Shown piece after piece: positions 46,555-52,561 of a stretch of 64,000 nucleotides of DNA. Below the pieces are notes generated by a model, which saw nothing but the letters and a program-made list of their open reading frames with translations, had not been told where the DNA came from and did not search any database. Position 1 is the stretch's first letter. Each line of letters starts with the position of its first letter. The position numbers and the translations under genes were made by a program. The stretch comes from Streptacidiphilus jiangxiensis (GTDB lineage: Bacteria; Actinomycetota; Actinomycetes; Streptomycetales; Streptomycetaceae), in NCBI RefSeq assembly GCF_900109465.1, contig NZ_FOAZ01000002.1:310001-374000 (forward strand), given 5' to 3'.

Positions 46555-46575
46555 GACAAACATGTCTCAGGTGAT
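46546..46575. promoter_or_regulatory. Perfect inverted repeat, TetR operator
   Basis: Arms ATCACCTGAGACA and TGTCTCAGGTGAT are exact complements with a 4-nt spacer. The element covers the stop codon of the MOSC gene and a promoter (TGAGAC at 46552-46557, 17 bp, TATATC at 46575-46580) whose start would fall on the TetR ATG. It could also end the MOSC transcript. Confidence 0.85.
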
Positions 46576-46588
46576 ATATCCTTGCCGC

Positions 46589-47134
46589 ATGGCCACCGAT
46601 CGCGACACCGTCCTCCTCGCCGCCGTCGGGCTGCTCTCACGGCAGCCCACGGCCGCGATGGACGAGATCGCGCGCGCCGCCGGCATCAGCCGGGCGACGC
46701 TGCACCGCCTCTTCCCCGGCCGCGACGCCCTGCTCCACGAGATCGCCACGTTCGCGCTGCAGCGCATGGAGGCCGCGCTGGACACGGCGGCCGTCGACGA
46801 GGGAGATCCGGTCGAGGCGGTGCGCCGCCTGGCGGACGCGATCATCCCCGACGCGGAACTGGTCGCCTTCCTGTCCGGCGAGAGCAAGCTCTTCGAGGAC
46901 GACACGATCACCGACGGCTGGGACCGGATCGACGCCCGGGTCGCCGCGCTCTTCCTGCGCGGCCAGCAGTCGGGCGCCTTCCGGATCGAACTGCCCTCGT
47001 CCTGGCTGAGCGAGGCCTTCTTCGCCCTGCTCGCCGGCGTCGGCTGGGCCGTCCAGGACGGGCGACTCGCCGTCCGCGACAGCACCCGCGCACTGACCGA
47101 GCTCTTCCTCGGCGGCGCTGTCCGGCGCGACTGA
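46589..47134 (+). CDS. TetR-family regulator of the adjacent MFS pump
   Basis: The 181-residue protein has a TetR HTH at residues ~5-50 (MDEIARAAGISRATLHRLF) and a helical ligand-binding domain. ATG 46589 is preferred over an ATG at 46562, because the latter lies inside the operator palindrome and has no ribosome binding site. TATATC lies 8 nt before this ATG, so the mRNA is probably leaderless. The MFS gene follows by 67 bp on the same strand, so the regulator should control its own synthesis and the pump. Confidence 0.9.
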   Translation: MATDRDTVLLAAVGLLSRQPTAAMDEIARAAGISRATLHRLFPGRDALLHEIATFALQRMEAALDTAAVDEGDPVEAVRRLADAIIPDAELVAFLSGESKLFEDDTITDGWDRIDARVAALFLRGQQSGAFRIELPSSWLSEAFFALLAGVGWAVQDGRLAVRDSTRALTELFLGGAVRRD

Positions 47135-47201
47135 CCCGCGGCGCCCTCCCCTTCACCACCTGTTACCTGCTACCTGCTGACCAGACTGAGAGCCCCTTCT
47201 C

Positions 47202-48743
47202 ATGACCACGGACATGACCGTGCCGCAGACCACCTCCGCCTACCGATATAACCGCCCGGGTGCGCCCTCCGGCAGCGCGCGCACCCGCTGGACCGCCCTC
47301 GCGGTCCTCGTCCTGGCCGTGCTGCTGGTGGCCGTCGACGCCACCGTGCTGGTCCTTGCGCTGCCGTTCATCAGCGAGAGCCTCGCCCCGTCCGCGCCGC
47401 AGCTGCTCTGGATCGGCGACAGCTACTCCTTCGTCATCGCCGGCCTGCTGGTGAGCATGGGCTCGCTCAGCGACCGCGTCGGCCGCCGCCGGGTCCTGCT
47501 GCTGGGTGCCGCCGCCTTCGGCGCCGCGTCGCTGCTGGCCGCCTACGCGCCGAGCGCCGGCTGGCTGATCGCCGCCCGCGCCCTGCTCGGCGTCGCCGGC
47601 GCGACGATCATGCCGTCCACGCTCTCGCTGATCCGCACGCTCTTCCCCGACGACCGCGAGCGCGCCCGCGCCATCGGCATCTGGGGTGCCGCGGCCACGG
47701 CCGGCGCGGCGGGCGGTCCGCTCCTCGGCGGCGTGCTGCTGGAGCACTTCTGGTGGGGCTCGGTCTTCCTGATCAACGTGCCGCTGGTGCTGGTGCTGCT
47801 GGTGCTCGGCGCGCGCCTGCTGCCCGAGTCGCGCGACCCGAAGCCGGGCGCCTGGGACCTGCCGAGCGTCGGCATGTCGCTGGTCGGCATCATCGGCGCC
47901 GTCTACGCCGTCAAGGAGGGCGCGGTCGAGGGCCTGGGCCGCGTGGACGTGTGGATCGCCGGCCTGCTCGGTGTCTCCTGCCTGACCGCGTTCTGGCGCC
48001 GACAGCTGCGCCTGCCGATGCCCCTGCTGGACGTGCGGCTCTTCGCGAACCGCCGGTTCACCGCCGCCGTGCTCGCCGCGCTGATCGCCCTGATCGGCCT
48101 CTCCGGCGTGGTCTTCTTCCTGGCGCAGTACTTCCAGCTGGTCCGCGGCTACTCGCCGCTGGTCGCCGGCCTCGCCGACATGCCGGCCTTCGCCGGTTCC
48201 ACGATCGGCGCGCTCGTCGCGGCCTGGCTCGCGGGCCGCGCCGGCCACCGCCGCACCCTGGCGGGCGCTCTGCTGGCGATGGGTCTCGGCATCGGCGTGC
48301 TGGGCTGGCTCGACGCCTCGACCTCCTACCTGGTGATCGGCGTCGCCTTCGCCGCGATCGGCATGGTCGAGGGCATCGTCTACGCCCTGTCGACGACGAT
48401 GGTCCTGGACGCGTCCCCGGCCGAGAAGGCCGGCGCGGCGTCGGCGGTCTCCGAGACCGCCTACGAGCTGGGCACCGCGCTCGGCATCGCACTGGTCGGC
48501 ACGGTGACCACCGCGATCTACCGCTCCGGGCTGCCGACCGGCACCCCGGAAGCGGCCCGCAACTCGCTGGGCGGCGCGGTCGAGACCGCGCACACCCTCC
48601 CGTCGGGCCCGGGTGCCGAGCTGCTGCGCGCCGCGCAGGACTCCTTCGTCCACGGGCTCAACGCCGCCGCGCTGCTCTCCGGCGGCCTGCTGGTCGCCGC
48701 GGCGGCCCTGGTGTGGTTCCTGCTGGGCCGCGGCAAGCGCTGA
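47202..48743 (+). CDS. DHA2-family MFS efflux transporter (14 helices)
   Basis: The 513-residue protein has 14 helices and DHA2 signatures (DATVLVLALPFISESL in helix 1, GSLSDRVGRRRVLLLG in the loop 2-3 motif A, and motif C around GAAATAGAAGGPLLGG). It resembles SmvA/QacA drug-proton antiporters, which export cationic drugs and biocides. Cotranscription with the TetR gene upstream supports drug-induced efflux. The substrate cannot be told. Confidence 0.9.
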   Translation: MTTDMTVPQTTSAYRYNRPGAPSGSARTRWTALAVLVLAVLLVAVDATVLVLALPFISESLAPSAPQLLWIGDSYSFVIAGLLVSMGSLSDRVGRRRVLLLGAAAFGAASLLAAYAPSAGWLIAARALLGVAGATIMPSTLSLIRTLFPDDRERARAIGIWGAAATAGAAGGPLLGGVLLEHFWWGSVFLINVPLVLVLLVLGARLLPESRDPKPGAWDLPSVGMSLVGIIGAVYAVKEGAVEGLGRVDVWIAGLLGVSCLTAFWRRQLRLPMPLLDVRLFANRRFTAAVLAALIALIGLSGVVFFLAQYFQLVRGYSPLVAGLADMPAFAGSTIGALVAAWLAGRAGHRRTLAGALLAMGLGIGVLGWLDASTSYLVIGVAFAAIGMVEGIVYALSTTMVLDASPAEKAGAASAVSETAYELGTALGIALVGTVTTAIYRSGLPTGTPEAARNSLGGAVETAHTLPSGPGAELLRAAQDSFVHGLNAAALLSGGLLVAAAALVWFLLGRGKR

Positions 48744-48785: not shown

Positions 48786-49679
48786 TCACGGCTGCGCCCA
48801 ACCCGTGATCCGCTCGCGCAGCGAGGCGGCGTCCAGGCCGTGCGCGGCGATGTGCTGCTCCATCGTCCCGTAGTGCCGCAGCTCCTCCCGGGAGACGCCG
48901 AGGCCGAGCACCCGGTGCGCGCGGTCCGCCAACGTCTCGGCGACGAACGGGGTCGAGGTCCCGGCGAGGTACGGCTCGACGACCACCACGTCGGCCGCAG
49001 CCCGGTCGGCGAGCGCGGCGCGCAGCGCCGCCTGGTCGAAGGGTCGGACGGTGGCGGCGTAGAGGACCGTGGCGTCCACGCCCTCCAGGGCGGCGAGCAC
49101 CTCGTCCAACACCGGACCGACCGCGATGACGACAGGACCGCCCCGCCCCTCGCGCACGGTCAGGAACCGCCCCGGCGTGATCGGCCGGGCTGCGGCGTTG
49201 CTCTGCAGCGAGAGCCGCACGTAGACGAGCCCGTCCGCGGCCGCCGCGTCGCGCAGCAGCAGCTCGGCCTCGTCCGGGTGGCCGGGCACGTGCACGGTCC
49301 AGCCGGGCAGGGTGTCGAGCAGTGCGACGTCCGCCGGTGACATGTGCGTGCGACCACCGGCCGGCCAGTCGTACGACCCGAGCGCGCTGACCAGCACGGC
49401 GCCCGCGCCCTGGTGGCCGAGGTCCAGCTTCACCTGCTCGAAGGGCCGCTCCACGAGAAAGCTGGCGAAGGTGTGGGCGATCGGCCGCATCCCGGCCAGC
49501 GCGAGGCCGCCCGTCGCACCGATCAGCAGCTGTTCCCGGATGCCGACGTTTATCACCCGGTCGGGGTGGGCGGCGGCCGCGCCGTCGAAGCCGGAGGCGG
49601 AGATGTCGGCGAGGACGACGGCGACGCGCGGGTCCTCGTCGAGCAGGGCGGTGGTGGTGGAGATGAATCGCTCGCGCAT
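48786..49679 (-). CDS. Transketolase C-terminal subunit (split transketolase)
   Basis: The 297-residue protein corresponds to the pyrimidine-binding and C-terminal domains of transketolase, including the cofactor-activating Glu in VGIREQLLIGATGGLALAGM and FASFLVERPFEQVKLD. With its upstream partner it forms a thiamine-diphosphate enzyme of the split-transketolase type. AAGGAACGG lies upstream of the ATG, 36 bp after the partner's stop. Split transketolases of this kind often work on sugar intermediates in secondary metabolism or pentose salvage; the role here is unknown. Confidence 0.85.
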   Translation of the reverse strand: MRERFISTTTALLDEDPRVAVVLADISASGFDGAAAAHPDRVINVGIREQLLIGATGGLALAGMRPIAHTFASFLVERPFEQVKLDLGHQGAGAVLVSALGSYDWPAGGRTHMSPADVALLDTLPGWTVHVPGHPDEAELLLRDAAAADGLVYVRLSLQSNAAARPITPGRFLTVREGRGGPVVIAVGPVLDEVLAALEGVDATVLYAATVRPFDQAALRAALADRAAADVVVVEPYLAGTSTPFVAETLADRAHRVLGLGVSREELRHYGTMEQHIAAHGLDAASLRERITGWAQP

Positions 49680-49715: not shown

Positions 49716-50435
49716 TCAGTTCTTGGGCTCGACGACGGCGACGACCGCGTGCGGCCGCCCGGGGTGCGGCCGGGTGAACGCCTCGAACAGCGCGCCGTGG
49801 TCCCGCCCGTCGACGGTCACGGTGGACCACCCCGCCGTCGCGAAGTGCGAGGCGATGCCCCCGTACCAACCGTGCGTGGCCGACTGGTTGTCGATGACGA
49901 CCGTGTGCAGCCGCTCCAGCCCGGCCGCCCCGGCGTAGGCGATCGCCTCGTGGTTGCTGCCCTCGTCCAACTCGGCGTCACCGATCAGCACCCACACGGC
50001 CGGATCCAGCAACCCCTGCGCCCGCAGCCCGAGCGCGGTGCCGACCCCGAGCGGCAGCCCGTGCCCGAGCGACCCGCTGCCGATCTCGACCCCGGGCACG
50101 AGCGTCCGGTCGGGGTGGTGGCCCAGCGGCGAGTCGTATCGGCCGAAGGTGTCCAGGAGCTCGGCGGCGATGAAGCCCTTCGCCGCCAGGACGGCGTAGT
50201 AGGCCATCGGACCATGGCCCTTGGAGAGCAGGAAACGGTCCCTCTCCTGATCCTCCGCCGTCTCCGGGGTCACGCGCAGCACCCGGTCGTAGAGCACCCA
50301 CAGCACGTCGAGCGTCGAACTGGCGGCGGGACCATGCTTCTCGGCGCCGGTCATCCGGCTCATGAGTCCGCCGAGGTGGTGGAACGTCGGGGACGTCGGG
50401 TGAAAGGTGACGGCGTCTGCCGTGGTCAGCGTCAT
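49716..50435 (-). CDS. Transketolase N-terminal subunit (split transketolase)
   Basis: The 239-residue protein holds the diphosphate-binding domain: SKGHGPMAYYAVLAAKGF, GSGSLGHGLPLGVGTALG and the thiamine-diphosphate motif GDAELDEGSNHEA. ATG 50435 is taken as the start: there is no ribosome binding site, and a SoxR-type promoter ends 6 nt upstream, so a leaderless mRNA is likely. The frame also opens at a GTG (50462) inside the SoxR box, which is unlikely. It heads an operon with the C-terminal subunit. Confidence 0.85.
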   Translation of the reverse strand: MTLTTADAVTFHPTSPTFHHLGGLMSRMTGAEKHGPAASSTLDVLWVLYDRVLRVTPETAEDQERDRFLLSKGHGPMAYYAVLAAKGFIAAELLDTFGRYDSPLGHHPDRTLVPGVEIGSGSLGHGLPLGVGTALGLRAQGLLDPAVWVLIGDAELDEGSNHEAIAYAGAAGLERLHTVVIDNQSATHGWYGGIASHFATAGWSTVTVDGRDHGALFEAFTRPHPGRPHAVVAVVEPKN

Positions 50436-50441
50436 GGGATG

Positions 50442-50472
50442 AGCGTGCAACTTCAAGCGCACTTGAAGTCAA
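50442..50472 (-). promoter_or_regulatory. SoxR-box promoter of the split transketolase operon
   Basis: ACTTCAAGCGCACTTGAAGT (50450-50469) has perfect 8-bp arms and contains TCAAG-N4-CTTGA, the core of the SoxR operator. On the minus strand TTGACT (50467-50472) and CACGCT (50442-50447) are 19 bp apart, the stretched spacing typical of MerR/SoxR-activated promoters. The transketolase ATG follows 6 nt later. Confidence 0.75.
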
Positions 50473-50730
50473 GCGGGCCGATGCGCTGCAAGGACCCGGT
50501 CGACTCGGTCTGTCCTCATCGGAGGTCGAGTCCTTGCTGCGGCATCGCGCGACGACCTCGCCCGCTGTGCCGAGTTGCCAGGGCACGCTGATCCGCCGGC
50601 GACCACCTGGTCCAACAGTTGTGGCAGGCGATCAAGGTTGTCCGTGTGGCCACGTGGACCAATTGTTTGTCTCGCATGCTTGGCCAGGCAGTCGGTCGGC
50701 GCTGCCGGTCCGAGGTGAGATCGTTGCCGC

Positions 50731-51078
50731 ATGGTGGACGTGGATGGGGAAACGGCGGATGGCGGAGCCGAGCACGCTGTCATCGCGCGGTTCCGGCTTG
50801 CTCAGGAGGGCTTCGGCGGGGAGGGGGAGCGGTCGGTTGTGCGCGAAGCCCAGGGTCTGCTGAGGGAGGCCATCGAACGAGCTGGTGTCGGCGAGTTCGA
50901 CGGAAACGAGTTCGGGGGTGGCGACGTCGTCCTGTACGCGTACGGGCCTGATGCCGACGCGCTCTTCGGCGTCATGGAAGCCACGCTGCGAGGACTCCCG
51001 CTCCGCCCGGCCCACGTTGTTCTGCGCTACGGGTCCGCAGCTGATCCCTCGGCGGCCGAGGTGCGTGTAGAGCTGTGA
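50731..51078 (+). CDS. Conserved hypothetical acidic protein
   Basis: The 115-residue protein has a compact alpha/beta pattern with FDGNEFGGGDVVLYAYGPDA at its centre, which I recall as typical of an uncharacterised streptomycete family. GGTGAG lies upstream of the ATG. No catalytic motif is seen. The 255 bp upstream toward the SoxR box contain no gene I can support. Confidence 0.7.
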   Translation: MVDVDGETADGGAEHAVIARFRLAQEGFGGEGERSVVREAQGLLREAIERAGVGEFDGNEFGGGDVVLYAYGPDADALFGVMEATLRGLPLRPAHVVLRYGSAADPSAAEVRVEL

Positions 51079-51135
51079 CCTGTGTGTGAGGCGGTATGCA
51101 GACCCGCTCAGGCCGCCTTTGCCGGGATGGTCCGT

Positions 51136-51213
51136 CCACGCGTGGATCGGTGAACCGGGGGCGATGTGGCGCAATGCCGCGAACTCGGACTCTGTCCAGT
51201 TCAGCCACGATCA
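51136..51213 (-). pseudogene. IS630-family transposase remnant
   Basis: On the minus strand the translation reads SWLNWTESEFAALRHIA (51160-51210), closely matching the W-L-N-x-I-E-x-x-F-x-A-L-R block around the last catalytic Glu of IS630-type DDE transposases common in streptomycetes. Beyond it (PGSPIHAWTDHP) the similarity fades, and a stop codon lies just before it. Only this fragment remains; no intact element or terminal repeats are visible. Confidence 0.55.
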
Positions 51214-51224
51214 CCGGCCCGCGC

Positions 51225-51989
51225 CTACGAGGCCGTCGGCCTGGGCCCGCCCGAGCGGACCAGACGTTCGCCGAGGGCGACCAGCGCTTCGGGGTCGACG
51301 CGGACCTCCGCGTCCCCCTCGGCGATCGACAGGGTGCCGTCCAGGGAGCTCACGGCTTGGAACGTCCGTTGCTCGAAGTTCTGGAACTCGACGAACGAGC
51401 CGGGCGCGCCTTCCAGCAGGCCGAGCTCACGCGTGAGCACGTCGACCGTCGTGAAGCCGAGGGCGGAGCCCATGCTGCCGCCGCGGGTCCGCGCGTTGCT
51501 GTAACGCATCTTCACGTACGGGGACGGCCGCCGGGTCAGACTCCCCGGGCGGAGCATCCGCGAGAACCTGGCTGCGGACTCCTGCGCGGTTTCCGTGCCG
51601 GAGAACTCGCAACGGAACGCCGGGAAGGCTCCCACCGCGACGCTTGCGAGTTCCGGGTAGGCCTTCGTGCTGTAGCCGTGCACCTCCTGGGCGACCAGAC
51701 ACACGACATCGAAGTCGTAGCCCGGGTGCGAGAACCCGTCGAGCACCACGAGCGACCGTCCGCCCAAGGGGCTCCCTGCCGACCCCCGTGAGCGCGCGAA
51801 CGCGAACACGGCCGCCAGCAGCGGTTCGTCGAAGCCGTCCAGGACGTTCAGCCGGAAGAGCCACTGCCGACTCGCATCCTGGGCGGCCGCGTAGTGCATC
51901 CGGGGCGCAGGCGACCAGACCCACGCGCCCGACAGACCGCGCATCGGTACGACGTCCGGGACACGCTGGATCGTGTCGGCGATACCCAA
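51225..51989 (-). CDS. Protein of unknown function, divergent from soxR
   Basis: The 254-residue protein has the coding character of a real gene but no family I recognise. It is predicted soluble, with blocks AWVWSPAPRMHYAAAQD, HPGYDFDVVCLVAQEVHGYS and YVKMRYSNARTRGG. A GAGGAG site five bases before TTG 51989 fixes the start. A SoxR-box-like palindrome lies 45-70 bp upstream, so it may be redox-inducible. Its 3' end abuts the transposase remnant. Confidence 0.65.
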   Translation of the reverse strand: MGIADTIQRVPDVVPMRGLSGAWVWSPAPRMHYAAAQDASRQWLFRLNVLDGFDEPLLAAVFAFARSRGSAGSPLGGRSLVVLDGFSHPGYDFDVVCLVAQEVHGYSTKAYPELASVAVGAFPAFRCEFSGTETAQESAARFSRMLRPGSLTRRPSPYVKMRYSNARTRGGSMGSALGFTTVDVLTRELGLLEGAPGSFVEFQNFEQRTFQAVSSLDGTLSIAEGDAEVRVDPEALVALGERLVRSGGPRPTAS

Positions 51990-52034
51990 GAGTGCTCCTC
52001 GTGTGCGCCCCCGCAGGCAGGGGCCGATAGGCTG

Positions 52035-52060
52035 TGGACTTCAAGCGCACTCGAAGTCCA
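52035..52060. promoter_or_regulatory. SoxR-box-like palindrome between divergent genes
   Basis: TGGACTTCAAG and CTCGAAGTCCA are 11-bp complementary arms with one mismatch around CGCA, with the core TCAAG-N4-CTCGA. The spacer and inner half-sites match the box in front of the transketolase operon. It lies 22 bp before soxR and 46 bp before the divergent unknown gene. Confidence 0.7.
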
Positions 52061-52081
52061 GGAGTCCAGGACCGTGATCCG

Positions 52082-52561
52082 ATGCCCCCGCAGCACGACC
52101 GACTGACGATCGGTGAGCTGGCCGCGCGCAGCGGGCTGGCCGCGTCGGCGCTGCGCTACTACGAGGAGCTGGGGCTGATCGCGTCCAGCCGGACCACGGG
52201 TGGGCAGCGACGGTACCACCGGGCGATGCTGAGGCGGGTGGCCTTCGTGCGGGCGGCCCAGCGGGTCGGGCTTTCGCTGGACGAGGCCGGGCAGGCACTG
52301 GCGCGACTGCCGGAGGACAGGGCCCCCACGGCCGCGCAGTGGGCACCCGTGGCGCGGGCGTGGCAGCGGCGGATCGACGAGCAGATCGCCGAACTGCAGC
52401 TGCTGCGGCGCAAGCTCGGCGGTTGCGTCGGCTGCGGGTGTCTGTCCCTCAAGCGCTGCGCCCTCTACAACCCCGACGACACCGCCGCGGATCACGGGCC
52501 GGGCGCCCGCTGGCTCCTCGGCGACACGCCCCCGGAGCCCGAGCCCCCGACGACGGCCTGA
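52082..52561 (+). CDS. soxR: SoxR redox-sensing transcriptional regulator
   Basis: The 159-residue protein has a MerR-type HTH at residues ~8-50 (LTIGELAARSGLAASALRYY) and a dimerisation helix. The [2Fe-2S] ligand motif is C115-x2-C118-x-C120-x5-C126 (CVGCGCLSLKRC), exactly the SoxR spacing. In streptomycetes SoxR is activated by redox-cycling compounds such as quinone antibiotics and switches on small regulons. ATG 52082 is chosen because the HTH starts seven residues later; AGGA lies upstream. Its own promoter region holds a SoxR box. Confidence 0.9.
   Translation: MPPQHDRLTIGELAARSGLAASALRYYEELGLIASSRTTGGQRRYHRAMLRRVAFVRAAQRVGLSLDEAGQALARLPEDRAPTAAQWAPVARAWQRRIDEQIAELQLLRRKLGGCVGCGCLSLKRCALYNPDDTAADHGPGARWLLGDTPPEPEPPTTA

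Follow-up and report, generated by a model that had tools for sequence, protein, structure and literature searches.

Genes and regulatory elements of the locus

The window, a stretch of 64 000 nt from the Streptacidiphilus jiangxiensis genome, carries an operon for a split transketolase (TK) and, ∼1.6 kb away on the opposite strand, a soxR gene. TKN (49716–50435, minus strand, ATG start, 239 aa) encodes the N-terminal, thiamine diphosphate-binding half and matches Transketolase_N (PF00456) with 88.2 bits; TKC (48786–49679, minus strand, 297 aa) encodes the C-terminal, pyrimidine-binding half, with Transket_pyr (PF02779) at 92.8 bits and Transketolase_C (PF02780) at 25.9 bits. Thus, thiamine diphosphate-binding, pyrimidine-binding and C-terminal domains are all found in the two chains, the last one barely at the Pfam cut-off; by these scores both halves of the operon proposed in the first-pass annotation of this DNA are real.

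The TK promoter (50442–50472, minus strand) reads as that annotation had it: a −35 element TTGACT (50467–50472) and a −10 element CACGCT (50442–50447) with a 19-bp spacer. The spacer is filled by a SoxR-type box (ACTTCAAGCGCACTTGAAGT, 50450–50469; box 1), ACTTCAAG-CGCA-CTTGAAGT, a perfect 8+8 palindrome; a box at the centre of a 19–20 bp spacer is the geometry expected of a direct target. The ATG of TKN (50433–50435, minus strand) follows the start of TTGAC at a distance of 37 bases; therefore, judging from the sequence, the TKN–TKC mRNA is probably leaderless.

The soxR gene (52082–52561, plus strand) encodes a protein of 159 aa that scores 191.3 bits against TIGR01950 (cut-off 116.9) and has MerR DNA-binding domain matches in Pfam. 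It was identified at the outset by its [2Fe-2S] ligands, rightly so: the motif C-x2-C-x-C-x5-C is present in all 73 SoxR proteins compared, the window's included. This is the single SoxR above the TIGR01950 cut-off in the genome; seven more matches to the SoxR model fall below it. The start codon is most likely the ATG at 52082, because a longer frame started by GTG from 52034 crosses a second SoxR-type box.

This second box (box 2, 52036–52059, 22 bases ahead of the soxR ATG) has the form GGACTTCAAG-CGCA-CTCGAAGTCC; it is a candidate autoregulation site. That a box precedes soxR and shares its CGCA spacer with box 1 had been claimed before, and both points hold, with one mismatched pair in box 2. 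By position-matrix scoring the promoter facing soxR at box 2 is poor. On the side opposite soxR, 46 bases from box 2, starts a gene for a family-less 254-aa protein (51225–51989, minus strand); Pfam gave it no family even at E values up to 1, the loci fetched from other genomes contain no homologue, and as a SoxR target it is possible but unsupported.

Specificity of the sites in the window and the genome

Boxes 1 and 2 were the only matches in the window at ≤3 mismatches, with 0.01 expected; none of 100 shuffles produced two matches. The 16-base core, with ≤1 mismatch, occurred at three places in the 9.5-Mb genome, two of which are box 1 and box 2. A position matrix derived from 100 orthologous TK promoters of other genomes gave 54.3 bits to the TK site, 15.1 bits to box 2 (10.7 on the opposite strand) and 0.9 bits to the reversed TK site; nothing else in the window scored above −10. 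A looser 14-base pattern (one mismatch) was uninformative as a genome search and was abandoned, with 42 sites versus 28 in the reversed control. Elsewhere in the same genome, two short SoxR-like palindromes stand 21 bases apart (L005, G000:C85:189643-189677).

Conservation of the TK promoter across the family

Of the family's 297 genomes, 179 carry close relatives of TKN, and these genomes span 12 of its 17 genera; outside the family they are rare (12 of 396 genomes in a sample of the phylum, five of the 12 being family members). We fetched 100 TK loci from 100 of the 179 TK-bearing genomes; these were taken from the better-scoring matches and represent nine genera, the split into genera following the genome database's grouping, with the genus g9 taken as Streptomyces. 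All 100 have TTGAC[CT], a palindrome of 8+8 bases that pairs at six or more of the eight positions, a 19-base spacer and a −10 element of the form xAnnnT, and in all of them the start codon lies 37–38 bases on; the box is kept at the same place as box 1. The rule combining −35 element and palindrome was also applied to 704 further reading frames, picked mechanically from these loci, and none satisfied it; of 5000 shuffles of the upstream stretches one did. The same rule was satisfied by 78 of 80 named loci, and the other two pair at only five of eight positions. The search for the palindrome in orthologous promoters, proposed in the first-pass annotation, found it retained in the loci covered, so that its absence, named there as a refutation, did not occur. 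As the genomes all belong to one family and are not independent, these counts overstate the evidence.

Some TK boxes of Streptomyces have drifted, e.g. to TCAAC-N4-GTTGA. At L037/L110, L067, L126 and other loci of this genus both arms have changed together, from TCAAG-N4-CTTGA to TCAAC-N4-GTTGA, with the palindrome retained.

In a test of eleven loci, the box was missing from two TK paralogues and from seven of eight distant homologues. Second copies of the split TK, 70–74% identical to TKN and without a SoxR box, were seen at L028 (G006) and L311 (G067). The eighth distant homologue, at L312 (G493, outside the family, same class), has a related palindrome, TTGAGTTGAAGTCAACTTCAGGTTGCACGCT, ∼100 bases upstream, with a similarly spaced ATG.

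Linkage of soxR and TK

Outside Streptomyces, soxR is divergent and upstream of TKN in 42 of 43 loci; 39 of these pairs lie within 172 bases between aligned starts, one at 284 bases, and the remaining two, both in the genus of the window, are 0.6 and 2.9 kb apart. In Streptomyces soxR was nearby in 0 of 57 TK loci, with the box still present. Among the named loci soxR was inside the fetched stretch in 20 of 80, some of them named Streptomyces (e.g. S. monomycini, L217). SoxR is present in all 179 TK-bearing genomes versus 99 of 118 TK-less ones, a comparison whose Fisher test ignores phylogeny.

In a tree of SoxR proteins a fully supported branch separates the TK-linked SoxRs (43 rows, the window's SoxR among them) from 30 unlinked ones, these being the best-scoring in the family with none TK-linked, all from Streptomyces. 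The window's SoxR is 52–57% identical to these 30. We know of no studied member of the TK-linked clade.

Within the window's genus the two arrangements coexist. In five genomes (the window's, G002, G006, G007 and G008) soxR and TK are 0.6–7.1 kb apart, and all five have separate boxes before TKN and soxR; in the four other TK-bearing genomes (G001, G004, G009 and G011) the distance is 0.1–0.3 kb and there is one box. Probably a single box between divergent genes formerly served both, and after separation each gene retained one. Such retention suggests that soxR and TK both need a box, and hence that soxR may be autoregulated; that box 2 allows SoxR to control its own gene is the weaker part of our reading. 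Contrary to this idea, soxR of Streptomyces coelicolor is not autoregulated, according to the covered part of PMC4146615. The same paper gives the share of surveyed Streptomyces soxR genes with a box as ∼13%.

Genome-wide matches and predicted regulon

In the window's genus exact matches to the promoter pattern number one per TK-bearing genome, at TK in each case (9/9), and there are none in five TK-less genomes (one of the five has a completeness of only 76%). At ≤2 mismatches the 14 genomes gave 27 matches (four in the reversed control): nine at TK, eight at soxR-side boxes and ten elsewhere, the last with 1–2 mismatches. TK is thus the strongest predicted SoxR target in this genus; given the ten matches elsewhere and the four in the control, to call it the only target would go beyond the evidence.

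In Streptomyces we searched for the pattern TTGACNTCAASNNNNSTTGANGT with ≤1 mismatch, the reversed pattern serving as control. The 12 genomes yielded 0–7 matches each (61 in total, including two overlapping pairs; control 0), and TK was among them in 11 of the 12. Sixteen genomes of six other genera had 1–6 matches each (control 0), with TK among the matches in 14. In two of these sixteen (G036 and G028) TK was the sole match. Across both searches, the pattern at one mismatch misses the TK box in three genomes, G147, G166 and G128.

The gene behind the match was read for 30 of the 61 Streptomyces matches, and eight of these genes were scanned for families. They encode an ABC transporter, an FMN reductase, a zinc-type dehydrogenase, a methyltransferase, a SnoaL-like protein, an erythromycin esterase, a protein with a weak helix-turn-helix match (below cut-off) and one family-less protein. 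Proven targets in S. coelicolor include transporters, a flavin reductase and oxidoreductases, as listed in the part of PMC4146615 covered here.

Several genes behind Streptomyces promoters of this type (0–1 mismatch) are candidate new targets: those for the SnoaL-like protein (L270), the methyltransferase (L272) with a similar gene at L273, and the erythromycin-esterase family member (L275). Short proteins of ∼150 aa form another candidate group: the one with the weak helix-turn-helix (L293) and similar ones at L291, L294 and L299.

The enzyme and its active site

By sequence, the nearest solved relatives of both chains belong to the split TK of Carboxydothermus hydrogenoformans (6yak, N chain, for TKN; 6yaj for TKC). 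In all 101 sequences compared, the Glu of GIREQ and the His of TH, which we take to be the catalytic Glu and the active-site His, are invariant; so are R2 and R155, presumably the counterparts of phosphate-binding arginines. Two residues expected of a canonical sugar-phosphate TK are missing. At the equivalent of E. coli Asp469, 99 sequences have Gly, one has Ala and one has Ser, but none Asp; the equivalent of His461 is Ala, Gly, Leu, Ser, Met or Asn, never His (we assume the E. coli numbering, the Asp position being visible in the 6yaj alignment). A predicted structure of TKC, based on a ten-row alignment, had a mean pLDDT of 63.9, with most of residues 71–168, active-site loop included, below 50.

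We considered whether the loss of Asp469 is tied to SoxR control and rejected this, as split homologues without a box (L028 and L304–L311) also lack the Asp, having Gly, Arg or Glu; as far as the alignment goes, the change is a mark of the TK subfamily and not of its regulation. In the covered part of PMC7661550, mutations at four positions of E. coli TK, Asp469 among them, improve activity towards aromatic aldehydes, and the split TK of C. hydrogenoformans accepts bulky aldehydes.

A separate full-length TK, retaining the EDGPTH motif, is encoded in the genome. With this enzyme present and the split TK altered in its predicted active site, service of the latter in the pentose phosphate pathway is unlikely.

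Discussion

Conservation, linkage to soxR, specificity across the genome and the geometry of the promoter lend strong support to the proposal that SoxR controls the split TK. The conserved box, the linkage to soxR and the single exact match in every TK-bearing genome of the genus make such control very likely, and we hold with high confidence that SoxR acts at this locus as the switch of a split, non-housekeeping TK. Following established SoxR biology, reduced SoxR would occupy box 1; a redox-cycling compound would oxidise its [2Fe-2S] cluster, the DNA would be twisted and RNA polymerase could then use the promoter with its 19-bp spacing. A nearly leaderless TKN–TKC mRNA would follow, and the two chains would form one thiamine diphosphate enzyme transferring a two-carbon ketol unit. 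The acceptor is probably a non-standard one of aldehyde type rather than a pentose phosphate, and we infer a role in the handling of redox-active metabolites.

The first-pass annotation had placed the purpose of the switch elsewhere, in pentose phosphate flux and NADPH supply. Membership of the transketolase family and the invariance of R2 and R155 (101/101) agree with that purpose; we nevertheless find it unlikely and the claim unsupported. The full-length TK with EDGPTH exists separately; the Asp469 position is Gly in 99 of 101 split sequences and His never occupies the His461 position, so that the equivalents are missing in 101/101. In S. coelicolor, moreover, deletion of soxR did not increase sensitivity to redox-cycling drugs, as reported in the covered part of PMC4146615.

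One could also speculate that the box belongs to another regulator of the MerR type, SoxR being a bystander: the genome has the seven matches that score below the cut-off of the SoxR model, operators of MerR-type regulators resemble one another, and some Streptomyces boxes deviate while staying palindromic. It is a distinctly improbable reading, as the divergent gene upstream of TKN is soxR itself in 42 of the 43 loci that are not from Streptomyces, SoxR is present in all 179 TK-bearing genomes, and the same pattern stands before ABC-transporter, FMN-reductase and dehydrogenase genes in Streptomyces. Finally, that the box is a no longer functional relic of shared ancestry in a short intergenic region is hardly credible: all 100 loci come from one family and all TKN proteins compared are at least 72% identical to the window's, but the flanks vary while the positions of box, −35 and −10 are nearly fixed, each TK-bearing genome of the genus has one exact site, each gene has its own box after separation (5/5 genomes) and box-less paralogues exist.

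The proposed SoxR control of the split TK has several known parallels. In the E. coli SoxR–soxS system, as at TK, the divergent target lies beside soxR and the palindrome is within an over-long spacer; however, the target in E. coli is a regulator and here it is an enzyme operon. The soxS promoter serves as the comparison in the legend to Figure 3 of PMC4146615. The S. coelicolor regulon described in the covered part of that paper resembles the present case in having a streptomycete SoxR, a soxbox in the promoter and a small regulon; it differs in comprising six genes with no transketolase and a soxR that is not autoregulated, whereas here the SoxR is of the TK-linked clade and TK is apparently the chief target. 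An expression analysis in S. coelicolor delineated a nine-gene SoxR group, the six known members plus three neighbours (PMC11538686, as covered); the word transketolase is absent from its main text.

The split TK of C. hydrogenoformans has two chains and the same domain division (6yak/6yaj; PMC7661550, as covered). Its Asp is kept, in GEDGASH, whereas the streptomycete clade has Gly. We know of no link of that enzyme to SoxR.

As for novelty, the idea of TK as a SoxR target has a precedent. A footnote to Table 4 of PMC4146615 gives a conserved SoxR site for SAV_1623 of S. avermitilis, a putative transketolase and probably an orthologue of TKN; the covered part of the paper mentions no split gene, no pairing with soxR and no family-wide conservation of the site. 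Among the open-licence papers, as far as covered, a streptomycete TK under SoxR was found in PMC4146615 alone and not in PMC7550540, PMC11538686 or PMC12401495; the SoxR-site survey that PMC4146615 cites may list transketolases. What is new, to our knowledge, is the family-wide conservation, the pairing of soxR and TK around a common box, the restriction of exact sites in the genus to TK and the altered active site.

In antibiotic producers SoxR is known as an activator of exporter and redox-enzyme genes. The two-gene thiamine enzyme accompanies soxR across several genera and is seemingly its strongest target in this one; this points to a step, so far unrecognised, by which these bacteria cope with redox-active compounds. 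We suggest, tentatively and with more doubt than conviction, that in Streptacidiphilus, Kitasatospora and relatives a separate class of SoxR and one divergent enzyme operon form a self-contained module, with TK as the chief or only target of this redox-drug sensor; the enzyme would have ceased to be a sugar-phosphate transketolase and would act as a carboligase on redox-active metabolites or on reactive carbonyls generated by them; in Streptomyces the same enzyme and switch would be served by a different, unlinked SoxR. A simple promoter, a regulon predicted to be small and an enzyme that could be produced as a pair of small proteins make the step open to direct testing.

Two observations concern the surroundings of such genes. 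In a gene list of Micromonospora the split transketolase genes and SoxR appear in separate places, with no link drawn between them (PMC7550540, as covered). In the window, a TetR regulator and an LfrA/QepA-like MFS exporter (46562–48743) are convergent with the TK operon; the exporter also stays close to TK in several congeneric genomes, as it does in genus g11 (L065, L164 and L165).
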